Source of the DNA: Armatimonadota bacterium | GTDB taxonomy: Bacteria; Armatimonadota; Fimbriimonadia; Fimbriimonadales; Fimbriimonadaceae | Length of the DNA: 64,000 bases | Direction of reading: 5' to 3' | Assembly: GCA_025360125.1 (NCBI GenBank) | Contig: JANYCU010000021.1 | Span: 163,271 to 227,270, forward strand | In this document: in pieces, positions 37,353 through 56,080 of the stretch | How the letters are laid out: every line of letters begins with the position of its first letter | Numbering within the stretch: position 1 is the stretch's first letter | Notes under the pieces: generated by a model | Database searches by the model: none | What the model saw: only the letters and a program-made list of their open reading frames with translations | What the model was told of the DNA's origin: nothing | Position numbers and translations under genes: made by a program

Positions 37353-38456
37353 CTATGGTTGCCGCCGCGCGACCAAACAAGTCCTCAGCAAGCCAGCGGT
37401 GTACATGAGTTTTAATTGCTCATTCGGCTTGGGCTTACGGTTCCACTGCTCGCCGAGGAGGCCCTGGTCGTTCCGGCACTTCTCGAAGATCGAAGCGACG
37501 TATTGCCCGGTATCTGGCAGTTCGAGCTTTGATGGGAACCTCATTTGATACATCACCTGGTTGACTGCTCGGAAGGCTTCGAAAAGGTGCATGGCAAACA
37601 TTCCGGGATTGTTGACCAAGTTCTGGTCGGGTTCAAGCCATCGGTCGGTCGAGGCATCGGTCATTTGGATGACTCTGACTATTCCGGGAGGAATTTCAGT
37701 CACAGGTGACTCCCTGGTGACAATAAATCCTCGCAGGCAGGCGGCTTCGATATAGCATGCCGAGTTATAGCTCCACTTGGCGCGGTCGATCTTCCCGTCG
37801 AGGTTCATGTTGTCCATGATCAGAAGGTCTTTGTCGGCCAGCTTGCTGGTCCACGCAAGCCACCTCTCGCCGTCATCTCGGAGTTTTTCGTCGTGGGTGA
37901 TCAGGAAAAGCTTGAGTGCGAGCATCGCCGCCGGAGCGCTGACGCAGGCGTTCTTCGACTCCTTTTTGTTCTCATGCCAGTAGATCCCACCGCCAAGCTT
38001 GTCGTCTTCTCCGCTCCTCAGGTACGTCATGACTTTCTTTGCGATCTCGAGATATTTCTTTTCGTGAGTGGCATCAAATGCCTCGATCGCCGCCAGCCCA
38101 ACCCACGCGTTGTCGTCGTAATAACGATCGGGATTCTTCGGATTCTGACCGGGCGAAACGGCATAGGCTCCAGGCGCCTTGGTGGTCCAATACTTGGCCA
38201 AGCCATCAAAGGCCTTTTCCATCCGAGGTTTGTACGTTGCCGGGTCAAGTTTCGCGCCGATGGCAAAAGTCGACAAGAGGACCGAGTATCCCCAAAGGAA
38301 TACTTGATCGTCTTTGCCCGCCATTTCACGCCATCGTTGGTGCTTTGCGTCCCAGAAGTGGTTGTCCAACGAGGAGAGGAGCGCCGATTCAATCTGTTCG
38401 GGTGTTTGTTTTGGCTCCTGAAAACCAATTGCCAGAGCAAGAATCAGTGCATTCAT
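37353..38456 (-). CDS. (alpha/alpha)6-barrel glycosidase, GH76-like
   Basis: Signal peptide MNALILALAIG; YYDDNAWVGLAAIEAF; GGGIYWHENKK. Confidence 0.55.
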   Translation of the reverse strand: MNALILALAIGFQEPKQTPEQIESALLSSLDNHFWDAKHQRWREMAGKDDQVFLWGYSVLLSTFAIGAKLDPATYKPRMEKAFDGLAKYWTTKAPGAYAVSPGQNPKNPDRYYDDNAWVGLAAIEAFDATHEKKYLEIAKKVMTYLRSGEDDKLGGGIYWHENKKESKNACVSAPAAMLALKLFLITHDEKLRDDGERWLAWTSKLADKDLLIMDNMNLDGKIDRAKWSYNSACYIEAACLRGFIVTRESPVTEIPPGIVRVIQMTDASTDRWLEPDQNLVNNPGMFAMHLFEAFRAVNQVMYQMRFPSKLELPDTGQYVASIFEKCRNDQGLLGEQWNRKPKPNEQLKLMYTAGLLRTCLVARRQP

Positions 38457-38458
38457 GT

Positions 38459-41299
38459 TTAGACTGTGTGAGCGTACGTCACAGTTTCGACGCCCGATGA
38501 CGATCGATCGTAAGTTCCCCAGCCGCGTTCGTTGATGAATCCGCATCGGAATTTGCCAGACTTCTTCGGGCTGAATGACATTTTGCCGTTCGGGCCGTCG
38601 ACTTTGAATCCGGTCATGCTGATGAACGCTCCGTACGAAGCCATTGCTCGTCCGTAGTGGTCGCTGCACTCGATTTCGTTATACGGATTGCGCTTTGAGC
38701 CGTGGTAGCGCTGGTGAATCGCATAAACAACTGCCAGACCCTCGTCGACGAGGTCTTCGGAAATCATGTGGGCACCAACTTGGTATTCAAAACCACTCAT
38801 GCATTCATTGAAATACATAGTGGCCCATGCGTCTCCGCCCTTACCAACGCTTTCTGCTGCGCCACCGTGAGGGAAGGAACACATGATGAGGCCAGGTTCA
38901 CCTGGTGCGGCGTACCAACGTCCACCAGGAATTCCTTTCACTTTTCGGCGATACTCCCAGACGTCATCGTAGAAGCTGTACTTGAACAAGGCTTTTAATG
39001 CCGAAACGGTTTCCTTCTTGGGGATGATGCGCCCGAGGCCAACTTGGTGAGCCCACGATTGGCCGTAGACCTGATCGATGTGGCAACCGTTGTTGGTGTT
39101 GTTTGACTCGGGATGCGCCGGGTCAAGCTTGTGGATGAAGTATTCGCCATTGTAGAGTTGATCCACCATTTGCTTCGAACCGCTTTCTGCTATTGCCGCG
39201 CACTCCTTGGCGAACTCTTTGTCGCCCATCGCGTTGGCCATCGCTTCGGTTGCCTTTACGGTAGCCAAATAGAGGGATGAAATCCAGGCGATCTTTCCAT
39301 ACCAGGCGGTGTCGAGCGTGTTGTATTGGGCTCCATCGAGGATTCCGTCTCGATCCTGATCTTGGTTGATGAGATATTGAGTTGCCTTCTTGACTTGTGG
39401 CCAAATTCCAGTCAAGAACTTGTTGTCCTTGCTCATTTGATGCTCCCGATAGGCTCGCATGATGCATCCGCATTGCCCGTCATGAGCGACAATCTGGTGG
39501 TATTCAGCTCGATAGTCAATTGCTCCAGATTCCTGGTGGAATGCCTTTTTAAAATCAATTTTCTCTCGGAGGTATCGTTCGACTCCGGGGAATACTCTGC
39601 CGATTGCCTGGGCATAACCCCAAACGTGCGTACAGGTTCCGGCGCAGCAACCAATTCCTTCCCAGAAGTAGAACCTTCCGTCATCGAAGCGATGGCAGGT
39701 TGTGGTTGCGAGGATGCTCGTGTTCACGAACGTTCGATCGAGGAACCAATGCGGAAGCGTCGAGTCGTACCAGGTCTTATTCCAAGCAAGAGTCGTGTTA
39801 CAAAGATGTGTCCATTTCGACAAAATCTCTTGGGAAACTTCGCCTGCATTCGCCCATTTGGTTGCGTACCAATTGTGCTTTCCGGGCAGCCCACTATCGA
39901 CTACTGGAAAATGCCACGCAACGATCAGGGTGACTTCTTTGGATTCACCCGGAGCCAATGAAACGCTTTTACCGACGACACTTGTGCCGCCAATTGTTGT
40001 TTGGTTTGCTCCTCCTGCAAATTCGACACTGAAAGTACCGAAGTCGTGACTTTCTTCAAGAGGTGCTGATGCCCTTGTGGCGTCGCTAAAGACAACTTCT
40101 CCGAGTGAGATCTGACCCCATCCGCCCGTAAATGAGTCAACGACTTCGATATGGGCGGCTTTTCCAGCCAGATTGCGGACATCAAAAGACTCCCACGCCA
40201 TTTCGTTGCTGTCGTGCCCGGTAACCGATCGTTCGATCTTTCCGTTGACCACTAGGTTAACGCATGTTTCACCCTTGTGACTACCACCGCCAACCCTCAT
40301 GTTGATATAGTTTCGCGCGATTATAAATTCGGGAGAAACGAGGAGGCCGACATGAGCGTCGGCTTGGCCCACATCTTCACCATTTCGGTTTTGGTGGGTA
40401 TTCACCACGAACTCGGTTCCTGCCTTTACTGGTCCCATGTACGTTGGCAACTCAGAAACCTTTCGCGGAGTTTTGCCGAACGCTGTTCCCGATGGAACCC
40501 AGTTGCCGTACGTACCACTCGACCAATCTTGATAGTGTATTTCTGATCGAATCGGTTCGTCCGACTTGACCGATGAGGTTCCAAACAAAATGCCTCCAGT
40601 TGAAGACTTTTCTGCGGTGAGTTTGAAATCGCTGCGCTTCTTCCGTGTAAACGTCAAAACTGGATTCTCGGTGACGTATTGCAGTCGGTATTGAGTCTGG
40701 ATCTTGCCAACGTTTGTTATTTTAAACGTCAAGGTTGTCGCGGGATATGACGATTCATCGACGTTGAGAGGAATGAAGGGCGAGAACGCCACCAAAATCA
40801 TCTCAACATCGGAATCAGCGTTGAGATACTCTACTTTTCCGACGGGATATTCACCGCGAAAATTGATTTTGCCAAATCGAACTCGCTTTTCTGGCTTCCC
40901 TTCGGCAATAAGCTCAAAATGTTGGTTGAACGGAGATTGTTGAGAGACAGGATCGACGTAATTGGCCCCCGTACCTTGCGACAGCGATTCGCCCATGAAC
41001 TCCGTGTTTGTCCGTTCAACTGCACCGTCCTTCTTTTGGTTAAAAATGTCCCAGTTCCAGAGCTGACCATCTCCGCCAAGATAGAGTGTCCCGGCAAACA
41101 AGCCGCCTACAGGCATTCCGATAAATCGCAAGTCTTGACCAGTGTAAACCTCTGGTTGAGTTCGATCTCGCAGTTTAGGATTCTTTGACTTCAGACTAAT
41201 TTGCGGACTTGAATCCCCTAGTGACGATGCGGCCAGCGGCACAACAGCTGCGGCTGCGGCACTGCCAAGCAGGTCTCGGCGCGATATATGATTTGACAT
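38459..41299 (-). CDS. Tat-exported GH116-like (glucosylceramidase/DUF608) glycosidase
   Basis: MSNHISRRDLLGSAAAAAVV; GMPVGGLFAGTLYLGGDGQLWNWDIFN; GCCAGTCTHVWGYAQA; YNTLDTAWYG; SDHYGRAMASYGAF. Confidence 0.82.
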   Translation of the reverse strand: MSNHISRRDLLGSAAAAAVVPLAASSLGDSSPQISLKSKNPKLRDRTQPEVYTGQDLRFIGMPVGGLFAGTLYLGGDGQLWNWDIFNQKKDGAVERTNTEFMGESLSQGTGANYVDPVSQQSPFNQHFELIAEGKPEKRVRFGKINFRGEYPVGKVEYLNADSDVEMILVAFSPFIPLNVDESSYPATTLTFKITNVGKIQTQYRLQYVTENPVLTFTRKKRSDFKLTAEKSSTGGILFGTSSVKSDEPIRSEIHYQDWSSGTYGNWVPSGTAFGKTPRKVSELPTYMGPVKAGTEFVVNTHQNRNGEDVGQADAHVGLLVSPEFIIARNYINMRVGGGSHKGETCVNLVVNGKIERSVTGHDSNEMAWESFDVRNLAGKAAHIEVVDSFTGGWGQISLGEVVFSDATRASAPLEESHDFGTFSVEFAGGANQTTIGGTSVVGKSVSLAPGESKEVTLIVAWHFPVVDSGLPGKHNWYATKWANAGEVSQEILSKWTHLCNTTLAWNKTWYDSTLPHWFLDRTFVNTSILATTTCHRFDDGRFYFWEGIGCCAGTCTHVWGYAQAIGRVFPGVERYLREKIDFKKAFHQESGAIDYRAEYHQIVAHDGQCGCIMRAYREHQMSKDNKFLTGIWPQVKKATQYLINQDQDRDGILDGAQYNTLDTAWYGKIAWISSLYLATVKATEAMANAMGDKEFAKECAAIAESGSKQMVDQLYNGEYFIHKLDPAHPESNNTNNGCHIDQVYGQSWAHQVGLGRIIPKKETVSALKALFKYSFYDDVWEYRRKVKGIPGGRWYAAPGEPGLIMCSFPHGGAAESVGKGGDAWATMYFNECMSGFEYQVGAHMISEDLVDEGLAVVYAIHQRYHGSKRNPYNEIECSDHYGRAMASYGAFISMTGFKVDGPNGKMSFSPKKSGKFRCGFINERGWGTYDRSSSGVETVTYAHTV

Positions 41300-41964: not shown

Positions 41965-42936
41965 TTACGCAGTTGAAGCGTCGACCAATTCTCGGTCGTT
42001 ACAAGCCACAAGACCTATGGCTTTCCACAGCGATCCATCTGCGTCTTTTTGGGCATCGAGTCTTCGTGCTTGCGCATAAAAGAACATGTTGAGGATGATC
42101 ATCGTGGCGCCAAATAACCAAAGGCCAAAGCCAATCATGATTCCCAGATGCATTGCAATGAGTCCCGACACAATTACTCCACGAAATCTGCGGTAAAAGG
42201 CAAGCGGGTAGATGAATTCAAAGGCAACAACCGAGAGGCATCCGATTTGGAGCAACCAGGGCCAATTGTGGACAAAACTAAAGTCAAACAGGCGAGTTCC
42301 AGCTGAATCGCTTCGGTAAATGGACCTCCAAAGAGCCTCCCCGTTTTGCCATTGGGTTCCAATTCCTTTTGCCAGTCCAGAACTACAATATGCGATCGCT
42401 AAGTGAATCTGAAAAGCAAATCCAACCAGTCTGGCCATTCGATCACCGGAAATCCCTTTTCGGCAAACCCAACCAATAGTGGTAAACGACCAAATCATGC
42501 AATAGAACAAGCCGATGTGGATGAACTCGTACATTCCATAGACGGCTCCCATCATGGTTGCTTTAATGAAAACGAACGCAAAGAATAGGAGGGTGACGCA
42601 TCGCCAGTCTTTAGGACGCAGAAATGCCAGACAGCAAGACAGAATGGCTATTGCATAGCTAATTTTGAGAATTAAATCTTGGTGTTCGCCGAGGTGGAAA
42701 TATCGTATTAGGGCCCAAGCAGAAAATGGTGCGTCATTGGAAATATCCAAAAAGATTTCTTGCCGGATCGCTCCACCCGCTCCAAACAACTCAAGAAACG
42801 AGCGACACAACCAGACTAGGCACGCCAACAAGACGCACGCTAGCAGTTGGACGAACCAAACGAATGGTTCTCGGCTATCGATAGTAGAAAAAAGTTTCGA
42901 GCGTAATCCACTCACGGGCATGTAACTCCTTTTCAC
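41965..42936 (-). CDS. HTTM (vitamin-K-dependent gamma-carboxylase-like) multi-TM protein
   Basis: Multiple TMs; LAIAYCSSGLAKGIGTQWQNGEALW. Confidence 0.65.
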   Translation of the reverse strand: MKRSYMPVSGLRSKLFSTIDSREPFVWFVQLLACVLLACLVWLCRSFLELFGAGGAIRQEIFLDISNDAPFSAWALIRYFHLGEHQDLILKISYAIAILSCCLAFLRPKDWRCVTLLFFAFVFIKATMMGAVYGMYEFIHIGLFYCMIWSFTTIGWVCRKGISGDRMARLVGFAFQIHLAIAYCSSGLAKGIGTQWQNGEALWRSIYRSDSAGTRLFDFSFVHNWPWLLQIGCLSVVAFEFIYPLAFYRRFRGVIVSGLIAMHLGIMIGFGLWLFGATMIILNMFFYAQARRLDAQKDADGSLWKAIGLVACNDRELVDASTA

Positions 42937-43393
42937 GCAGAGGCGGGATCAGTTCGGCTTGGTACTGAATGATGACACTATCGATATCGGGATATTTTGA
43001 AAGGGCGTAGGCGCTGATTGATTCGGTAACTGCTTTTCGGGCCGGGCCCTTCAACCCCATCCCTACGAATGCGTTCAGGAAGTGTTGAGATTCTCCGCGC
43101 AACCCGACATCAATGACGTGCCAATTCGTTATTCCGCGTTGACACCCCATGACGATGATTCGCGATTCGCTGGACACCCCTGGAGCAAAAAAACCAAATC
43201 CCTGATTGGCACTAAAAAGACCGCCATATTGCTCGATCTTCTTAGGATATTCCTTCAGCTTATAGTGAGCCAATTCGGCATCATCGAGGCTGATAAGGAA
43301 TCCACGAAAAGCAGAAATGCCCACAAGAGCGAGGTGAAGACTGAGATAGATCGCAAAACTTCGAACGATCCACACAGTTTTCACCTCACTCAC
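42875..43393 (-). CDS. Membrane-anchored partner of HTTM protein
   Basis: N-terminal TM; NQGFGFFAPGVSSES; overlaps HTTM start. Confidence 0.6.
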   Translation of the reverse strand: MSEVKTVWIVRSFAIYLSLHLALVGISAFRGFLISLDDAELAHYKLKEYPKKIEQYGGLFSANQGFGFFAPGVSSESRIIVMGCQRGITNWHVIDVGLRGESQHFLNAFVGMGLKGPARKAVTESISAYALSKYPDIDSVIIQYQAELIPPLREKELHAREWITLETFFYYR

Positions 43394-43417
43394 TTGTATT
43401 CCTTAGATTGATTGAAT

Positions 43418-44083
43418 CTATTTCATCGAAGCTAACCCGACTCGGGCTTGGTTCCAGAATCGCATTGGATGGCTTTCACAGTATTGTGCAACCATTTGCT
43501 TCAATTGAGCGGAAGTCATTCCCATATCTTCGGCAGAAATTTTTGCCGAAATTCCGTCTGGTCCGGCATTGGCAAACGGGGGCTTAACTTTGGCCGTTCC
43601 GGCTTTACCAGTAGCTTGTCCGGTCGTAGTATCTCTCAAATGGTGGACTCCCTCGTCAAACACGTAGTAGAGTACAGCTACTTCTGCGGCAGATAGTTTA
43701 ACCATTGGACCGCTACTTGGACCGACGGGTCTGGCCGATGTTTCCCATTTTTGATAGCGAACTAACGTGTCGTCAACAGCGCTGAGGAACGCCTTTGTGT
43801 GCAAGATCGTTGTTTCATTGAACTTCGTCTTTTTTCCCCTCATTTGGGGGCCAGCTCCGCCGGAACCTGTGATATTTTTTTGCATATCGTTGAGATGCAA
43901 GGTCGCGGCATCATGGAATTCTGCCACTTGAGCAAGACTGACATTGTCCGGAATCATTGAGTGTTCCGGCCAATTTCCACCTTGTTGAACAGCTTCCATT
44001 CCAGGTTGACTCGTTGCGACAACAACGGTTCCCAAAATGGTACACGAGACGACGATGAATCGAGTAACTGAATTGAGTTTCAT
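43418..44083 (-). CDS. Tandem secreted paralogue 5 of unknown family
   Basis: MKLNSVTRFIVVSCTILGTVVVATSQPG; EFHDAATLHLNDMQK; DMGMTSAQLKQMVAQYCESHPMRFWNQARVGLAS. Confidence 0.85.
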   Translation of the reverse strand: MKLNSVTRFIVVSCTILGTVVVATSQPGMEAVQQGGNWPEHSMIPDNVSLAQVAEFHDAATLHLNDMQKNITGSGGAGPQMRGKKTKFNETTILHTKAFLSAVDDTLVRYQKWETSARPVGPSSGPMVKLSAAEVAVLYYVFDEGVHHLRDTTTGQATGKAGTAKVKPPFANAGPDGISAKISAEDMGMTSAQLKQMVAQYCESHPMRFWNQARVGLASMK

Positions 44084-44176
44084 TTTTATTCCCTCTTCCG
44101 ATTAGTTCAGAAGCCTGTAATAAGTACCGGGTTCCTTCGGGTTAGAAACTGGCCCGAAGGTCCTGAGTACGAATGC

Positions 44177-44782
44177 CTATCGGCCGGAAGCAAGACCTAC
44201 GCGAGCTTCATTCCAAAATCGCATTGGGCTACCTTCGCAGTATGTCGCTACCATCTGTTTGAATTGCTCAAACGTCATTCCCATGTCCTTTGGTGACACA
44301 TTTAAGCCAATACCGGATTTGGTTGCCCAGTCATCAGCTGCCGATGTCTTGCTTAATTTCATGGTGTCAATCCCCTTGTCAAATGTGTAGTAAAGCATTG
44401 CTAGTTGAGCAGGAGTCAGCTTTTTAACTACGGGCATACCGCCACCTGGGCTCGAAACCATGTCTGCTCCAACAACAACAAGGTATTTGTTGATGTAGTT
44501 TGATACAATAGTTTCTGTAAAGACGCAACGGCTAATTTGGGCGCGAGGGGAAGCATCCAATCGTCCAACTAAGCTCTTTTGAACATCATTCAAATGCAAG
44601 GTCGCTGCATCCTTAAATTCCTGGACCTGGCTAATACTGACCTTGTCTGGAATCATTTTGTGAGTTGGCCACGCGGTGGCTTGTTTTGACGATGCCATAC
44701 CTGGCTGGCTTGTGGCAATGAGTACAGTTCCTAGCACTGTAACGCCCACAACGGTGAATCGGGTGATTGAATTCAATTTCAT
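44177..44782 (-). CDS. Tandem secreted paralogue 4
   Basis: ATSQPG; EFKDAATLHLNDVQK; DMGMTFEQFKQMVATYCEGSPMRFWNEARVGLASGR. Confidence 0.88.
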   Translation of the reverse strand: MKLNSITRFTVVGVTVLGTVLIATSQPGMASSKQATAWPTHKMIPDKVSISQVQEFKDAATLHLNDVQKSLVGRLDASPRAQISRCVFTETIVSNYINKYLVVVGADMVSSPGGGMPVVKKLTPAQLAMLYYTFDKGIDTMKLSKTSAADDWATKSGIGLNVSPKDMGMTFEQFKQMVATYCEGSPMRFWNEARVGLASGR

Positions 44783-44807
44783 ATTATTTTGTTCCTCGTA
44801 AAATGTA

Positions 44808-45404
44808 CTATCTTCCGGATGCCAACCCGACTCGAGCCTGGTTCCAAAACCGCATAGGATTTCCCTCAATGTATTGGGCTACCATTTGTTTGAGTTGGTC
44901 AGCGGTCATCCCCATATCTTTTGCGGTTATGTGGGCGGTTATCCCAGTTGGCGTTACTTCAGCTTTTGCAGAACTAGCCGAGCCTGACTTTCCGATAATG
45001 TCGATACCTTGGTCAAAGGTGTAATACAGAATGGCTAACTCCGCAGGACTGATTTGATGACCATTTCCACCCTTCACGATTAAGCCGGGGATCGGGTCTG
45101 ATTTATAAATCTTCGTATTGAGAATACTCCGCCAAACCGTTTCGATAACCACGTAGCGCTGGGGAGGATACTTGCCCATCGAGCCATCCATCATTGCTTT
45201 TTGGATGTCGTTGAGATGCAAGGTTGCGGCATCCTTAAATTCCTGCATTCCTTGACCAGGACCACCCATCATCACCTTGGTAGGCATCAACTTGTGTTGG
45301 GGCCATCCATCTTGGAGGGTTCCCGGTTGGCTGGTTGCAACAATTGTTGCGCCGGTACCGGCACTGAGAACAATTGAAGTTCGGAGGAGAGTTGATAATT
45401 TCAT
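44808..45404 (-). CDS. Tandem secreted paralogue 3
   Basis: ATSQPG; EFKDAATLHLNDIQK; DMGMTADQLKQMVAQYIEGNPMRFWNQARVGLASGR. Confidence 0.88.
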   Translation of the reverse strand: MKLSTLLRTSIVLSAGTGATIVATSQPGTLQDGWPQHKLMPTKVMMGGPGQGMQEFKDAATLHLNDIQKAMMDGSMGKYPPQRYVVIETVWRSILNTKIYKSDPIPGLIVKGGNGHQISPAELAILYYTFDQGIDIIGKSGSASSAKAEVTPTGITAHITAKDMGMTADQLKQMVAQYIEGNPMRFWNQARVGLASGR

Positions 45405-45420
45405 AATCTATACTGGTTCG

Positions 45421-46011
45421 TTATCGTCCGGAAGCTAAGCCAACTCGCGCTTGGTTCCAGAATCGCATGGGGTTGTTTTCAATATACTGTCCGACCATTT
45501 GCTTAAATTGTGGCTCAGTCATTCCCATATCTTTTGGCGTCATTTGACTAGTTATGCCCGTTTGATCGACGTACGTTTTTGAGAGAGACGCAGTCCCCAT
45601 TTTGACCATCGTATCAACACCTTGATCAAACGCGTACATCAGACAGGCTAGTTCAGCGGGAGATATATTTTTCATTTCACCGCCACTCGTACCACCAGCA
45701 ACTGCGCTATTTGGAATGTAGACAAAGTGCTCGACAAAAAAGTCTCGCAACACGGTCTTAGAAATATATGTCCTCCCTTTTATTGGTCGGAGACCATCGT
45801 TGGTCAGGGCTTTTTGGGCATCTTTGAAGTGCAATGTTGCTCCATCTTTAAATTCTTGAACTCGGTTCATGCTGATTCGGTTCGGCATAGAATTATGGGT
45901 GGGCCAAACGAAGTTCTGCTGAGCAGAGCCGGGCTGACTGGTTGCCACAATAGCGGTTCCCAAGACCGTGCAAGAGACAACGACTAATCGAGTTATTGTG
46001 TTGTATTTCAT
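45421..46011 (-). CDS. Tandem secreted paralogue 2
   Basis: ATSQPG; EFKDGATLHFKDAQK; DMGMTEPQFKQMVGQYIENNPMRFWNQARVGLASGR. Confidence 0.88.
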   Translation of the reverse strand: MKYNTITRLVVVSCTVLGTAIVATSQPGSAQQNFVWPTHNSMPNRISMNRVQEFKDGATLHFKDAQKALTNDGLRPIKGRTYISKTVLRDFFVEHFVYIPNSAVAGGTSGGEMKNISPAELACLMYAFDQGVDTMVKMGTASLSKTYVDQTGITSQMTPKDMGMTEPQFKQMVGQYIENNPMRFWNQARVGLASGR

Positions 46012-46034
46012 CTTCTGTTCCATTGAATAATTAT

Positions 46035-46619
46035 CTAACGATTTGAGGCCAATTCAACCCTGGCTCGGTTCCAAAATTGCATATGATGGGAGTCGACGTA
46101 CTGAATCACAGCTTGCTTGAGCTGGCTCGGTGTCATTCCTAAGTCATTAGACGAAATGCTTGCCGTAATTCCGGTTGGAGTAGCATTGCCTTTCGCCGAG
46201 CTACCTTTTGCGATCCTATCGATGCCTTGATCAAAAATGTACGAAAGGACGGCCATTTCTGCTGCTGTTGTCGCTTTTGGCGATCCTCCGCCGACCGTCC
46301 TATCGGTTGCTCCAAGAACATAAAAGCGATCGTTCCAAATACGCACAAAGTCGATTCTGGTGATGATGATTGTCTTGGTTGGATATGCCTTACCGGCAGT
46401 GGACATCTGCAGCTTTTGCATCTCATTGAGATGAATTGTGCCTGCATCTTTGAATTCTTGGACCTGACTGATGTCCACTGATTTCGGAATGATTGAGTGA
46501 ATCGGCAATGCCATACTTTGTTGACCACGTGCGCCACCTGGCTGACTGATTACGATTACTACCGTGCCAAAAATTGCGCCCGCAACCACGAGCATCCGTC
46601 CAATCTGAGAAAATTTCAT
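46035..46619 (-). CDS. Tandem secreted paralogue 1
   Basis: ISQPGG; EFKDAGTIHLNEMQK; DLGMTPSQLKQAVIQYVDSHHMQFWNRARVELASNR. Confidence 0.88.
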   Translation of the reverse strand: MKFSQIGRMLVVAGAIFGTVVIVISQPGGARGQQSMALPIHSIIPKSVDISQVQEFKDAGTIHLNEMQKLQMSTAGKAYPTKTIIITRIDFVRIWNDRFYVLGATDRTVGGGSPKATTAAEMAVLSYIFDQGIDRIAKGSSAKGNATPTGITASISSNDLGMTPSQLKQAVIQYVDSHHMQFWNRARVELASNR

Positions 46620-46680
46620 ATATTATTAATTTCCTGTGTTAAGGAACCTAAGGCAACCTTAACACAAACGAAGTTCAAAG

Positions 46681-47700
46681 TCAATGCAAAGCGACCTTCG
46701 GCATTTGGCGAACAGCATCTCCAGGCTTGATATCCGTCCCTTCGGACAAAAAGGCAATGGACATCGTTTTTGTACCATTGCGAATCTTACATTTACCGAG
46801 AACAACATCGTCTTCACGGCCAATAACAACCCTGGTCTGAGGGTCAACCACAACCGTCCCCGGACGATAGATCTGCAAAGCTTCTCCATCCTTGATGCCG
46901 ACTTCAGAACCAAAGTTTAAGTACAAAAGCTTGACTCCATCTTTTTCGGTTATGGTTGCGATTCGACCTTCCCAAGGCATTTCATCAACTTTCTTGCAAA
47001 TCTCTTTGACTCCAAGTTCGATTGCGTTACGAATCGCTTTTGCCAATGGCATGGTTTCAAATTTTTGATGCCCAAATTGGATATCGCCTACTTGCAAGTC
47101 AATGCTTTTGGCCTTACTGTATGCGTGTCCCTCGGTTCGGATTGACTCCAATACTCGCCCAGTCTCGACTTCAATTACCTTGAGATCAATGGCACAATGC
47201 GCCGTAAACGAAGCGGTTTTGGCATCCACGAAATCACCAACAACTCCACCTGCGCCAAGTTCATTGTTGGTTTTCGAGTAAGAGAGTTCAGTAATTGCGC
47301 CGCGTACGAGAATTTGAGCCCCGAGTAATTTTCCGGGACCAGCAACCGAAGTCGCGTCAACACCTGGCAATGCGAGTTCAGCGGTTACATCGGCCAAATC
47401 CTTTCTTTCAAGAACTATAAATCGCTTAGACGCCACCAAGGCAGTGTTCAGCATGTCCGACATACCGTCACCAAAATCCATGTTGCCCGTAACCTCAAGT
47501 TTAGACTGCTTATAGCCACCGGATGGGAGAGCAATAGGAAACATAATGCTGTTGACTTTGACGGCAAAGCCGGGAACTGCCGCCCGTTTCTTGGGTCCAA
47601 AATATGCTGGCAACTTTACGTCGTCGCCAGTTATTGGCTTGCTTTGTCCAGCTAGTGGATTTTGCAGGCTCATGAAGATTAATAAGGGTATTGAAATCAT
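46681..47700 (-). CDS. CsgG-like (curli assembly/transport) domain protein
   Basis: SDMLNTALVASKRFIVLERKDLADVTAEL; GAQILVRGAITELSY; IDLKVIEVETGRVLESIRTEGHAYSK. Confidence 0.8.
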   Translation of the reverse strand: MISIPLLIFMSLQNPLAGQSKPITGDDVKLPAYFGPKKRAAVPGFAVKVNSIMFPIALPSGGYKQSKLEVTGNMDFGDGMSDMLNTALVASKRFIVLERKDLADVTAELALPGVDATSVAGPGKLLGAQILVRGAITELSYSKTNNELGAGGVVGDFVDAKTASFTAHCAIDLKVIEVETGRVLESIRTEGHAYSKAKSIDLQVGDIQFGHQKFETMPLAKAIRNAIELGVKEICKKVDEMPWEGRIATITEKDGVKLLYLNFGSEVGIKDGEALQIYRPGTVVVDPQTRVVIGREDDVVLGKCKIRNGTKTMSIAFLSEGTDIKPGDAVRQMPKVALH

Positions 47701-49670
47701 TACATTCTCGTGGAATATCCTATCATAACTTGCCGGGAAGACCGGAATCCTGGATAAAAGTTGTTGTTAGACAGATTCAAAAGACTCACCTCGAACGCGC
47801 CACCGGACGGTATTGCCAAAGAGAAATGAGCATCAATGCTCGTTCCTGGATTGGCGCGGCTTACATACCCGCCAGGCTCAATAGCTCCGTTGTTGAGGCT
47901 TTGAACGACTTGCGTTCGACTTCCAACATAATGAGCAGCTAGGGCGAAGGTTGATGACCGAGTAGACCAATCAAATGAAGCGGACGCTTCAAATCTTGGA
48001 ATATTTGGCATTTCGGTTACTTTCACTGGCTGTGGATTCCCTGAGGTTAATGACAGCGTTGGTCCTGCGTATGTTCCCGAAGAGCTTTGGACGGTAGCCG
48101 AAAGCCTCAAATTGGTCGCATTAGAAATTACGGAAGTGCTTTCAATTCCGATCCCCGTGACCTGGCCATTGGTGACCCGAGTTGTGTTCAGTTGCGAACT
48201 CGTTTGGGGGTCAGTTCCAATAAAGTTCTGATTGGTGAAGGAGTTTCGAAAGGCGCTGAGAAGAACGTTTGCGGCTAGTGGTAGCGAGACAAAGGTGTTT
48301 GTGAGTCGACTGTTTAGGCTCGGCAAGGCAATGTCCCGGTTGAATTCCAAGGCCGAGCTTTCGAGTCGGTCGAGGGGGTTTGTTCCGAGTGAACCGATCA
48401 TATCGTTAATTGGCCCGAGGTTTGTTTGCACCCGATTGATGCCTGGCTTGACACCTATCCGCAAATAACGATTCCCAAATGTGCGAATCGCCAATTGTCC
48501 CATCACACCAGCCTGGTTTGTCCCTCTGGCACTGGTGTAAATTGCCCCACTCGTAAATTTGATATTCTGGTTCAAATCCTGTCGATTTACCAAATACCCG
48601 TTGTACATATTGGTAGTTCCCTGGGGGAAGATTGCTTCAAGTGGTTCGATCGCCGGATTTAGTGAAGATGACTTAGAGACTTTGCTATAACCAGTTCCAG
48701 CCATCCACTGACCTGAATCATAGCGGGTTTCCAAGATGTATTGGTGAATACGATTATCGGTGACCATCGGCCCGAAGTTGAATGATCGCAGGCTGCTGAA
48801 CTCCTGGCGATAGTTGGCATGGAACGTAAGATCTCCTATTCGGTTTTGAAGTCCAATCATCGTGTGCCGCAGATCGAGTCGTGAGCCTGGGCTCGACGGC
48901 AAGAATAATGAAGGCATTGAAGTTCCGGGACGATCACTTTGTAGTCCACGATGGTTTCCAGCTAAAACTCCAAACGGCGTGTTCGTCGCAAAGTCGAGTT
49001 TTACGAGTTGTTGTAGGGCGCTTCCACCAACAGTCTGAGTCAATAGCTCTGCCTGATATGCGGTTGCGGCATCGGAGCTGAGCATTTGACCGCCCACCAA
49101 TATGGAACCATCGCCTGTTCCGCCAGTCACGTTTTGACTGTTCTCGTTGTGGAGTTTTGAATCCATGACGACTGGAGCACCCTGACGATAGCCTTGCCAC
49201 ATAAATCGTTCACCTTCGCGGAGGTGGGCTTGTTTCAGATTCCATTGCGCGAAACCGAGCAGCCCGAACGGCTCGTTAGGGTTTATGAACAGCGATTCTT
49301 GGTACTTAGACTTCGATGGTTCAAATTGCTTTCGAGCAAGATCAATTCCTGCCGAGATGACCTTTCCTTTCACCGATTGATCGCCCATGTGGAACGCGGT
49401 ATTCATCGCTAGTTTGGCGATTCCTAGCTTGCCCAATTCTTTTGCTGAGAGTCCACCATTGATCCATGGCACAGGCGAGTTATCGTTGGCTACTGAAGCG
49501 TCATCGTAGGCCGCTGAGGCATCTTTAAAGTTTCCGGCTAGGAAGAATTTATTACCCTTTTCAATGTCCGCCGCGCCCTTTGCCGACAGGCTCAATGTTA
49601 GCGGTTTAATTGTTGGTGTTTGCAGTTCTTTGACGGCTGCGAAAATACCTGCGAAAGCGAGAAGGTCCAT
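47700..49670 (-). CDS. TPR domain plus predicted outer-membrane beta-barrel
   Basis: N-terminal TPR-like KGNKFFLAGNFKDASAAYDDA; alternating amphipathic barrel pattern in C-terminal ~400 aa; TAATG junction with CsgG gene. Confidence 0.65.
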   Translation of the reverse strand: MDLLAFAGIFAAVKELQTPTIKPLTLSLSAKGAADIEKGNKFFLAGNFKDASAAYDDASVANDNSPVPWINGGLSAKELGKLGIAKLAMNTAFHMGDQSVKGKVISAGIDLARKQFEPSKSKYQESLFINPNEPFGLLGFAQWNLKQAHLREGERFMWQGYRQGAPVVMDSKLHNENSQNVTGGTGDGSILVGGQMLSSDAATAYQAELLTQTVGGSALQQLVKLDFATNTPFGVLAGNHRGLQSDRPGTSMPSLFLPSSPGSRLDLRHTMIGLQNRIGDLTFHANYRQEFSSLRSFNFGPMVTDNRIHQYILETRYDSGQWMAGTGYSKVSKSSSLNPAIEPLEAIFPQGTTNMYNGYLVNRQDLNQNIKFTSGAIYTSARGTNQAGVMGQLAIRTFGNRYLRIGVKPGINRVQTNLGPINDMIGSLGTNPLDRLESSALEFNRDIALPSLNSRLTNTFVSLPLAANVLLSAFRNSFTNQNFIGTDPQTSSQLNTTRVTNGQVTGIGIESTSVISNATNLRLSATVQSSSGTYAGPTLSLTSGNPQPVKVTEMPNIPRFEASASFDWSTRSSTFALAAHYVGSRTQVVQSLNNGAIEPGGYVSRANPGTSIDAHFSLAIPSGGAFEVSLLNLSNNNFYPGFRSSRQVMIGYSTRM

Positions 49671-49738: not shown

Positions 49739-51802
49739 CTATGGAGCGATGACTACGTACTCGAATTTCGTCATTACGTTCGGTCGAAGTCCATCTTCGA
49801 GTTTAGTTGTGATCTTGCCCTTATTTATTCTCGCAGTCCCTAAGAAATAGTGTCCCTGTTCGAACCCGAAGGAAATACCGTCATCTTCGTAGATCGGAGC
49901 TACATAGGGTCCTTCGCCATAGCATCGCAAGAGGCACGGTTTGATAGAATCTGCCCTTAAAGCCCCCGGAATAGTTGGTATTGCTGCCCCGCCTCGAACA
50001 TATAATGGTATTTCGCTCAGACTTGGTGCGATGGTAATGGTCTGCGAGGAGCCTGCGAACTTTCCGGACGAATAGTCGTACCACTTGCCTGCCGGGAGGC
50101 GAACTGTTCGAGTTTTTGCCCCAACGAACATTGGCGCAAACAGAAGATTGTCGCCGAGCATGTATTGGTCGCTTTCCACGCCGCCATCGATGAGGCACAT
50201 CGGACGGACAGGCGGGATTCCGCTCAGTCGATATTGAGCGAAGGCGGTGTAGAGATACGGTACGAGTGATTCTCTCAGAAGCATGGCTTCCCGGATCTCT
50301 TCTGATACGGCTGGATAACTCCACGGTTTTTTGCCACTATCCCATGCGTTGAGCTGGGCGATGGGTGACAGACAGGCTGACTGCATCCGTCGGACCCACT
50401 CTTCGTTTGAATCGGCGCTGCGAATCTCGGCACACCACGTGACTCCAGCGAGCGAACTGTTTATGAGGGCCGTTATGTATTGATGGTGGTCGTAGGTATC
50501 GCTATAGATAGCAAACGGAAGGCGCGACGCGGCTCCGTTCGAGCCGCGCACCAGACCGAACGTCCGTTGACCTTTCTGACGATACATATTGTCAATCAAC
50601 TTTTGCCAAAGGACGCCATAGATTTGCCGCATTTGCAGCCCATCCAACCCCGATGGGAACGTCGCATGATCCGGCCAAAGCCAGAAGTCGAAGCCGTCAA
50701 CTTCGTCAATCTTGTAGCCACTGACGCCAATATTGAGGTGTTTGTCGGTGTGGAAGTCTCGAATTGATTTGGACGCCTTATCATCAAAAACATCCGGCAC
50801 GGCCCCGAGCCACACCGTATGCGAACCGAAACGGCTTTCTAATTTTTTGAATAGTGACGAGCCCGGGGCGACGTATGGATTTTCCCAGAGGTTGACATGA
50901 ATTCCCTTCTCGGCCATCGAACTGACAAACTGTTTTGGATTGGGAAAGCGCTCAGGACTCCATTCCATTGAACCTGGATAGGATCGCGATTGCCAACCAG
51001 GCTCCAGGCCGATGACGTCTAGCGGAAACCCTCTTTTGGCAAACTCATCGACTTCTTGACTCACTTGACTAGAAGTCGCCAACGAAGGAGTTCGGTGCCA
51101 GAATCCGACGGCCCAGAGCGGAGGCATTGCTCCTCCTCCGCAAAATAGATTATATCGTTGGAGCGCCTGCATGGCGGTTGGGCCTGCGAGGATCGTGATT
51201 TCTAATCCTGGGGCTTGTACGCTTGCTTCAACTTGGCCACTGTCGGGTTGGGCATCCCAGTTTCGGTCAGTGTTTCGGTCTTTGAACGCAGGAATCTTCG
51301 GATCGGTCCGTCGATTTCCTACACCGACGTAGAAGTTTATTGGGCGGGAAGTGTTGAGAAAGACAGCATAACCGAGGCTGCTTATGTACATTGGAGTCGG
51401 CGCATGAAGGCGATCGTGCCCTTCGGCAAAATGATCAACTTGGAGATGATAGACGCCTCCACGGCGGTTGATGCCGGACATTTGCATTCCCAAACCGAAA
51501 ATCTTCTCACCTGGCTTGAGAGGGACGCTTACAACGCAATAGTCTCGGGTTTTTGTAAGCTTTACTTCGTTTATCTTAAAAGGTAGCTCAGCCCGGGGTA
51601 ATTTTTCGATTTGGCCCTTTAGTGGCGTGGAACCAGAGGCCTCAGTGAGTGTGGGGGTGTCGTGGCGGCCAAATTCCGTCGTCCATACGCCAGGATTTCT
51701 CTCTTCCCATCGCGAGGCTCCAGACTGATTTGAAACGTGCGTGACGAAAAGGGATAGGGCAAGTAACATATGGCTCCGAGTTGCCATGAACTCTACCCTC
51801 AT
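49739..51802 (-). CDS. GH31 family alpha-glycosidase
   Basis: PLWAVGFWHRTPS; FPLDVIGLEPGWQ; GVSGYKIDEVDGFD; GVTWCAEIRSAD. Confidence 0.85.
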   Translation of the reverse strand: MRVEFMATRSHMLLALSLFVTHVSNQSGASRWEERNPGVWTTEFGRHDTPTLTEASGSTPLKGQIEKLPRAELPFKINEVKLTKTRDYCVVSVPLKPGEKIFGLGMQMSGINRRGGVYHLQVDHFAEGHDRLHAPTPMYISSLGYAVFLNTSRPINFYVGVGNRRTDPKIPAFKDRNTDRNWDAQPDSGQVEASVQAPGLEITILAGPTAMQALQRYNLFCGGGAMPPLWAVGFWHRTPSLATSSQVSQEVDEFAKRGFPLDVIGLEPGWQSRSYPGSMEWSPERFPNPKQFVSSMAEKGIHVNLWENPYVAPGSSLFKKLESRFGSHTVWLGAVPDVFDDKASKSIRDFHTDKHLNIGVSGYKIDEVDGFDFWLWPDHATFPSGLDGLQMRQIYGVLWQKLIDNMYRQKGQRTFGLVRGSNGAASRLPFAIYSDTYDHHQYITALINSSLAGVTWCAEIRSADSNEEWVRRMQSACLSPIAQLNAWDSGKKPWSYPAVSEEIREAMLLRESLVPYLYTAFAQYRLSGIPPVRPMCLIDGGVESDQYMLGDNLLFAPMFVGAKTRTVRLPAGKWYDYSSGKFAGSSQTITIAPSLSEIPLYVRGGAAIPTIPGALRADSIKPCLLRCYGEGPYVAPIYEDDGISFGFEQGHYFLGTARINKGKITTKLEDGLRPNVMTKFEYVVIAP

Positions 51803-54958: not shown

Positions 54959-56080
54959 ATGGCACGGCAGCGACGGGAACGAGGGGCGGGATCAATATAT
55001 AAACGAGGCGCCTCATTCATTGCTCAAATGAAGTACGAATGCCCTCAAACAGGCAAAATAAAGACCAAGCAGGTCTATGGCAAGACTCAGGGCGAAGCTG
55101 TGGCGGCGCTGAAGCAGCTGCAAGCTTCCCTTCTCGCTGGCAATGCTCCAACCACGGGCAAAAGCCTCACGGTTTCCTCCTGGATCGACCTTTGGCTCGA
55201 AGACTATATCAAGCCGAACCGGGAAGTCAAAACGTACCAGTTCTACAAGCTCATGGCCGACAAGCGAATCAACCCATACATCGGCCGCATGGAACTCAAT
55301 AAGGTAACTCCGACTGACGTCAGCCGAATGTTCAAGAGCATTGAGAAGGACAAGGCGACTCCGAACACGGTTGCTGCTGTTAAAAGAACGCTCCGCGCCG
55401 CATATGGGGTCGCCATTAAATACGGGCACGTGAACGATAACCCGGTTTCAAAGACATTTGCCACAAAAGTGAAGCGAGAACCGAAAGTCTATTTCGACTC
55501 AGACCAGGTCAAGGCTCTGCTCAAATCGCTTCAGGGATCTCCGATTGAGAGCCTGGTCAAATTCACACTTGCGACAGGTATGAGAATTGGTGAGGTCACC
55601 GGAATCACCTGGGACAATGTCGATCTCAAACAGAAAACCGTCCTTGTTCAAAATCAACTTCAGCGCATAAATAAGGAACTGATTCTAAAGCGGCTCAAGA
55701 CTGAAAAAAGTATTCGCACCATGCCGCTTGTCGGCCATTCGCTCGATGCTGTCTTGTCCGAAGAAGCTATGAAGAATCAGAAGGCGAGTCAGAATGCTTT
55801 GAACCTAGTCTTTACGAATCCTTGGGGACGACCCTTTGATCAAAAGTACGTGAGTGAGCACCTTCATAGGGTCCTTGAGACAGCAAAGCTCCCAAAGACA
55901 GGTATGCACTCGCTTAGGCACTCTGCCGCAACGTTTATGCTGATGGCCGGGCTCAATCTCCACCAGGTCAGTCGCTATCTTGGGCATTCGCAAATTGCTC
56001 TTACATCAAACCTATATGGACATGTTCTTGATGGCGCGATGCGAGATGCCGCCGAACAACTTCAGCAAGCCTATTCGTAG
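54959..56080 (+). CDS. Tyrosine recombinase / integrase
   Basis: TLATGMRIGEVTGITWDNVD; GMHSLRHSAATFMLMAG; RYLGHSQIALTSNLYGH. Confidence 0.95.
   Translation: MARQRRERGAGSIYKRGASFIAQMKYECPQTGKIKTKQVYGKTQGEAVAALKQLQASLLAGNAPTTGKSLTVSSWIDLWLEDYIKPNREVKTYQFYKLMADKRINPYIGRMELNKVTPTDVSRMFKSIEKDKATPNTVAAVKRTLRAAYGVAIKYGHVNDNPVSKTFATKVKREPKVYFDSDQVKALLKSLQGSPIESLVKFTLATGMRIGEVTGITWDNVDLKQKTVLVQNQLQRINKELILKRLKTEKSIRTMPLVGHSLDAVLSEEAMKNQKASQNALNLVFTNPWGRPFDQKYVSEHLHRVLETAKLPKTGMHSLRHSAATFMLMAGLNLHQVSRYLGHSQIALTSNLYGHVLDGAMRDAAEQLQQAYS

Follow-up and report, generated by a model that had tools for sequence, protein, structure and literature searches.

The TPR domain of PelB docks the PelC ring under the PelB barrel (PMC12141448), and type XI (DUF560) outer-membrane proteins, which also carry TPR domains, secrete proteins that are encoded nearby (PMC8406197). 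The TonB-dependent transporter Oar is required for the secretion of PopC (PMC6434023), and for YitO and YitP, paralogues of SdpB and SdpA, a role in the processing of a secreted precursor was suggested (PMC6818787). For diderm phyla that are distant from Proteobacteria and Bacteroidota, little is known of protein passage across the outer membrane. Here we analyze a 64,000-nucleotide stretch (the window) of contig JANYCU010000021.1 of an Armatimonadota bacterium of the family Fimbriimonadaceae, which carries at 41965-49670 a cassette encoding a barrel protein with TPR repeats, a CsgG-like protein, five paralogues of about 200 residues (P1-P5), a protein with one predicted transmembrane segment (gene 8) and an HTTM-domain membrane protein (gene 9). 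As the barrel and CsgG-like genes form a fixed unit whose secreted neighbours are exchangeable, we tentatively propose that their products form an outer-membrane complex that exports the neighbouring Sec-exported proteins or assembles them at the surface. The fixed pair with its changing secreted neighbours is a concrete, testable candidate for outer-membrane export.

Profile searches of whole genomes were confined to Armatimonadota (291 genomes, 113 of them in the class of the window). The barrel profile detected seven genomes within the class and a second, wider profile added a close eighth, G120, from another class, so that there are eight pair loci in all, five of them from one genus. The CsgG-like gene directly follows the barrel gene on the same strand, at a spacing of -1 to 9 nucleotides (nt), in 8/8 of these close barrel genomes, and the eight paired CsgG-like proteins group together in a tree, at a branch with support of 81/94 that is found in 82% of the bootstrap trees. 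The two genes are an old, fixed unit. This unit is not reserved for the paralogues, for six other genomes keep the barrel and the CsgG-like gene with different secreted neighbours. Esterases (PGAP1/DUF676) are encoded upstream of the pair in G016, G015 and G061, zinc phospholipase C-like proteins downstream of it in G016 and G015, and a GDSL lipase beside it in G091. Nearly all of the changing neighbours have a hydrophobic N-terminus resembling a signal peptide; the esterase of G061 starts near a contig end and its N-terminus cannot be judged.

Other secreted proteins are also encoded next to the pair. Two of ~1000 and ~900 residues, conserved in G005 and G015, are encoded downstream of it (L020 1924-7667; L021 3102-8811) and have no confident Pfam family. 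In G120 a secreted protein of 148 residues with a Cys-rich C-terminus, CCSVTSGPKWCVWVCGKRFCIRVCKW, is encoded directly upstream of the pair (L082 11141-11587); it has no Pfam match and is possibly a small secreted peptide precursor. Integrase or AlpA/HTH_17-type genes are found near several pair loci (L021 53-1042, L019 14515-15462, L017 11774-12052 and window 54959-56080), 41 nt from the zinc phospholipase C gene in G015, 244 nt from the phospholipase C gene in G016, 92 nt from the CsgG-like gene in G091 and 5.3 kb from the barrel gene in the window. A tRNA gene lies 86 nt past the helix-turn-helix gene in G091 and another 1.3 kb past the module in G015, and no att repeats were found at the tRNA genes beside these two loci. 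The barrel-CsgG pair may travel on integrative elements.

That the first gene of the cassette encodes a barrel with TPR repeats, as originally predicted, is borne out by structure modelling, Foldseek and profile matches. The AlphaFold2 model (pLDDT 76.9, pTM 0.81) places helices at residues 33-172, followed by ~22 strands, and the top 50 Foldseek matches of this model in the PDB are all TonB-dependent receptors (BtuB, E 2e-13). The N-terminal part of the barrel profile matches TPR proteins among PDB sequences, and relatives of the barrel match both TPR and PF00593 (9.2e-9 in G061, 3.5e-5 in G120 and 3e-15 in a longer protein at L071). Pfam scans of ten TPR-barrel proteins gave no Plug-family match, and in the model the first strands follow the TPR helices too closely to leave space for a plug. 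Since the Foldseek and PF00593 matches are to this family and a plug is neither detected nor accommodated, the barrel as modelled is of the TonB-receptor type with TPR repeats in the place of the plug. The amphipathic-strand statistic on the barrel is weak (z -0.2 to 3.1). The window barrel matches neither the Slam barrel nor TPR_Slam in Pfam, and a distant protein of G209 reaches TPR_Slam only at E 0.048. Larger proteins of ~1170-1200 residues that combine TPR with a TonB-receptor-type barrel, with no plug match, are present in many other Armatimonadota (L071 1472-4990; L073-L081). The L071 member shows a FecR domain, and at L071 and L070 a gene for a secreted protein of 350-400 residues follows the barrel gene on the same strand. 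These distant members have no CsgG neighbour in the flanks seen.

The call of a CsgG-like gene was upheld by a strong match to PF03783. The profile of this protein matches CsgG structures (E 4.5e-6), and over residues 81-198 it can be aligned with E. coli CsgG. By our reading, hairpin regions of similar length, as a putative pore would have, are present. The C-terminal extension matches FlgT_C only at E 0.07. No lipobox was found, as there is no Cys within the first 40 residues of the CsgG-like protein of the window or of G009, the second genome with the cassette. CsgE (PF10627) was absent in a search of the whole genome for which the E. coli control was positive, and neither curlin repeats nor CsgF had a Pfam match in the cassette, the genome beyond the cassette not having been searched for curlin. 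The analogy with curli drawn originally is thus weak on three counts (CsgE, the lipobox Cys and curlin repeats in the paralogues), and on the same three counts membership in curli was rejected.

All nine open reading frames are present on the minus strand of the window, and the compact arrangement originally described was confirmed: the stop codon of the barrel gene and the start codon of the CsgG-like gene share TAATG with an overlap of 1 nt, the first paralogue follows after 61 nt, the paralogues are separated by 11, 16, 25 and 93 nt, gene 8 follows P5 after 24 nt, and the overlap between genes 8 and 9 is 62 nt long, or ~41 nt if the start codon used in the relative is taken. The ratio of nonsynonymous to synonymous differences (pN/pS) is 0.24-0.58 across all five gene types, indicating that they encode real, constrained proteins. 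A scan of GTDB genomes found one other cassette locus, in a metagenome-assembled genome of Fimbriimonas (locus L007, contig G009:C36), in which the barrel gene, the CsgG-like gene, one paralogue, gene 8 and gene 9 have the same order and strand as in the window and encode proteins that are 54-70% identical to those of the window. The G009 cassette is flanked by a divergent metallophosphoesterase gene and a gene for a PEP-CTERM protein, and these flanks differ from those of the window. As the same five gene types recur among different flanking genes, the cassette consists of these five gene types and its limits are fixed. The tight cluster recurs entire in a second genome.

The five paralogues share 39-52% identity in pairwise comparisons. 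Each has the single N-terminal hydrophobic segment ending in SQPG that had been noted, and no second one, the highest 19-residue mean hydropathy past residue 30 being 0.65-1.3. By sequence these N-termini fit Sec signal peptides, with cleavage plausible before QPG. The N- and C-terminal parts are conserved, the middle (~residues 75-120) is hypervariable, and the pN/pS among the paralogues (0.39-0.58) supports their protein-coding status. Searches of Pfam, NCBIfam, PADLOC, PHROGs and PDB sequences gave no confident match for them, and they were not found in viral contigs or plasmids; accordingly no family could be recognised for them, in agreement with the original prediction, and the profile search suggested there matched no characterised family. 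A search for the family across the phylum found it in 2/291 genomes, that of the window and G009, both with the whole cassette; paralogues outside the cassette, or in related genomes that have no barrel and CsgG-like genes, were looked for in the same 291 genomes and not seen. The AlphaFold2 model of the paralogue, built from six sequences, is weak (pLDDT 49, pTM 0.53); it shows four main helices, the middle being disordered, and its best Foldseek match is no better than E 1.1. Since neither the sequence libraries nor Foldseek gave a confident match, the family is new within the range of the libraries searched. The single paralogue of G009 is 58% identical to P5 compared with 41-43% to P1-P4, and it occupies the place of P5; either the duplications predate the split, with loss of copies in G009, or P1-P4 evolve faster, and the tree favours neither.

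The last two genes had been described as an HTTM pair, which holds for gene 9 and not for gene 8, a protein with one transmembrane segment and no family match in the library scans. Gene 9 aligned with PF05090 (HTTM) proteins by hhalign (prob 96.7, E 3.7e-10) over 175-288; the Pfam HTTM model itself does not reach it. The gene 9 profile matches HTTM proteins of many Fimbriimonadaceae (E 1.9e-8 to 8.4e-4), which in turn match PF05090 (1.9e-19) and are weakly SdpB-like, and on these profile comparisons gene 9 belongs to the HTTM (SdpB/gamma-carboxylase) superfamily. The SdpB model scores gene 9 of G009 at E 0.03, with 13.9 bits versus an NCBIfam cut-off of 178.4. The SdpA model TIGR04034 does not match gene 8; it picked out another place in the genome (L060), a match that was dismissed as noise. 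Gene 8 is 65% identical in G009 and was not found in the remaining 111 genomes of the class; within the class it is known from this cassette only. Elsewhere, in the genomes that were inspected, a gene for a protein of ~200 residues with a W-D-M-F-A-P-N-P motif, weakly DUF5819, comes before the HTTM gene. Gene 8 matches these partners in place and topology and has a G-F-F-A-P stretch, and its comparison with eight of them by hhalign gave nothing that supports homology. Such pairs of an HTTM gene and a DUF5819-like gene were seen at L024-L030 and L036, followed at several loci by a third gene, for a protein of ~300 residues, that is conserved across Fimbriimonadaceae.

Table 1. Positions in the window of the cassette genes and of the adjacent glycosidase gene (aa, amino acids)
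Feature	Position	Strand	Basis or remark
TPR + plugless TonB-receptor-type outer-membrane beta-barrel (as modelled), 656 aa	47700..49670	-	AlphaFold2, Foldseek, Pfam of relatives
CsgG-like protein, 339 aa, C-terminal extension weakly FlgT_C-like	46681..47700	-	PF03783, E 1.4e-27
Paralogue P1, 194 aa, predicted secreted, no known family	46035..46619	-	Open reading frame, library scans, alignment
Paralogue P2, 200 aa; 196 aa from ATG at 46011	45421..46023	-	Open reading frame, alignment
Paralogue P3, 198 aa	44808..45404	-	Open reading frame, alignment, model
Paralogue P4, 201 aa from ATG at 44782	44177..44782	-	Open reading frame, alignment
Paralogue P5, 221 aa, nearest to the single G009 copy (58% identity)	43418..44083	-	Open reading frame, alignment, tree
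Gene 8, 172 aa, one N-terminal hydrophobic segment, then probably an extracytoplasmic domain	42875..43393	-	Sequence
Gene 9, 323 aa, multi-pass HTTM-domain membrane protein	41965..42936	-	hhalign; five hydrophobic segments
GH31 glycosidase	49739..51802	-	PF01055, 5.4e-43; signal-peptide-like start; 68 nt upstream of the cassette

Glycosidase genes (GH76, GH116 and GH31) flank the cassette of the window on the same strand (37353-41299 and 49739-51802), and an RbsD/FucU-like gene lies downstream of it. The GH31 gene, which is absent upstream of the G009 cassette, encodes a possible cargo.

Our proposal of an export or surface-assembly unit is based, beyond the fixed pair and its exchangeable neighbours, on the conservation of the cassette in G009, on the barrel fold with its TPR domain and on the precedents of PelB-PelC, type XI secretion and Oar. 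In such a unit the TPR domain would lie in the periplasm beneath the barrel and bind both a ring of the CsgG-like protein and the cargo, and the cargo would leave the cell through the plugless barrel. The paralogues would be the cargo of the window cassette, their conserved ends perhaps serving as scaffold and recognition parts and the variable middle as the exposed part, and they might form a multi-subunit surface structure, as originally suggested. At the inner membrane, the paralogues may be acted on by gene 8 and the HTTM protein, by analogy with the action suggested for SdpA and SdpB on their secreted precursor.

Several observations weigh against this proposal. A protein may be secreted and encoded beside the pair without being its substrate, and no export motif common to the differing candidate cargo proteins was recognised by eye. 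The structure model of the paralogues is poor, and sequence comparison linked gene 8 neither to SdpA nor to the DUF5819-like proteins that accompany other HTTM proteins. In addition, CsgG-like proteins with no barrel nearby occur in many genomes, and for the solitary ones of G011, G017, G026, G028 and G095 the search found no barrel; as CsgG-like proteins occur with no detected barrel, CsgG alone does not imply a channel. A plugless TonB-receptor-type barrel with a CsgG-like partner was not reported in the literature searched. The fuller proposition is that of an undescribed protein-export system, in which a plugless TPR barrel of the TonB-receptor type is always accompanied by a CsgG-like ring and works in Armatimonadota as a standard unit with exchangeable cargo; this system would perhaps be spread by integrative elements, and in Fimbriimonas it would serve variable, tandemly encoded surface proteins that the HTTM protein processes. 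That the proposition holds in all these parts is rather doubtful.

The same barrel could instead import, or the pair could serve the upkeep of lipids or the envelope, with the paralogues as periplasmic binding or regulatory proteins. The TonB-receptor type of the barrel, a TonB_C gene at another place in this genome and the lipases and phospholipases at several other pair loci are consistent with such a device, yet the plug domain needed for TonB-dependent import is missing, only TPR helices preceding the strands, and the neighbouring genes encode signal-bearing enzymes and not inner-membrane transporters, so that we regard it as unlikely. Gene 9 raises another alternative, an Sdp-like antibacterial system in which the paralogues would be killing-factor precursors that gene 8 and the HTTM protein mature and that the pair carries through the outer membrane. 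SdpC-type precursors are ~200 residues long, a size close to that of the paralogues. The HTTM protein belongs to the superfamily of SdpB, a precursor, a protein with one transmembrane segment and an HTTM protein together make up the sdp parts list, tandem diverging copies would suit a toxin family, and SdpC-type precursors likewise have an N-terminal secretion signal (PMC6818787). However, the paralogues have no counterpart of the C-terminal hydrophobic domain present in SdpC and YitM, the cassette has no SdpA match, no immunity gene is recognisable, and HTTM proteins have other partners in many relatives, which makes this system quite unlikely.

The surface fibre originally envisaged, curli-like or holdfast-like with CsgG as the pore and the paralogues as subunits, draws on the CsgG domain, alignable as it is with the E. 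coli protein, and on the tandem of several homologous small secreted proteins. We consider it improbable, as it would have to do without CsgE, curlin, CsgF and a lipobox, the paralogues are modelled (at low confidence) as helical rather than as a beta-solenoid, and the CsgG-like protein is tied to a separate barrel. That the pair exports a polysaccharide in the manner of PelB-PelC or PgaA, the paralogues being periplasmic accessory proteins, is suggested by the common plan of a TPR barrel with a ring-former (PMC12141448), but the barrel resembles 22-strand TonB receptors and not the 16-strand barrel of PelB and PgaA, and inspection and partial Pfam scans recognised no synthase or glycosyltransferase, either within the cassette or next to the other pairs; such an exporter is likewise improbable.

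Compared with the described systems, the proposed export or surface-assembly unit has both shared and differing features. As in curli secretion (type VIII), the partner protein has a CsgG domain; curli CsgG is an oligomeric 36-strand pore, whereas the CsgG-like protein of the window is without a lipobox and is paired with a separate barrel in a genome that has no CsgE and a cassette that has no curlin match. SdpABC and YitPOM of Bacillus subtilis likewise have an HTTM protein, a protein with one transmembrane segment and small secreted proteins, but gene 8 is not SdpA by sequence and the paralogues are without the hydrophobic toxin part. With TonB-dependent receptors, Oar included, the barrel shares its modelled fold of ~22 strands and the PF00593 matches of its relatives, and it differs from them in having a TPR domain where they have the plug. 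Type XI systems (Slam/DUF560) have the same combination of TPR and barrel, with adjacent cargo genes that vary between loci as the candidate cargo does here; the window barrel is of another type that does not match Slam, and Slam has no CsgG partner. PelB-PelC has an outer-membrane barrel with a periplasmic TPR domain and a small periplasmic partner, which is a ring in PelC and here would be the product of the adjacent CsgG-like gene, but PelB has 16 strands and exports polysaccharide, whereas the window barrel has ~22 TonB-receptor-like strands, a partner with a CsgG domain and no lipobox, and no recognised synthase genes in its cassette. By their defining features the system of the window is outside the PelB-PelC, type XI and TonB-receptor families, and, judged by analogy, its anatomy appears closest to PelB-PelC and the arrangement of its candidate cargo closest to type XI secretion.

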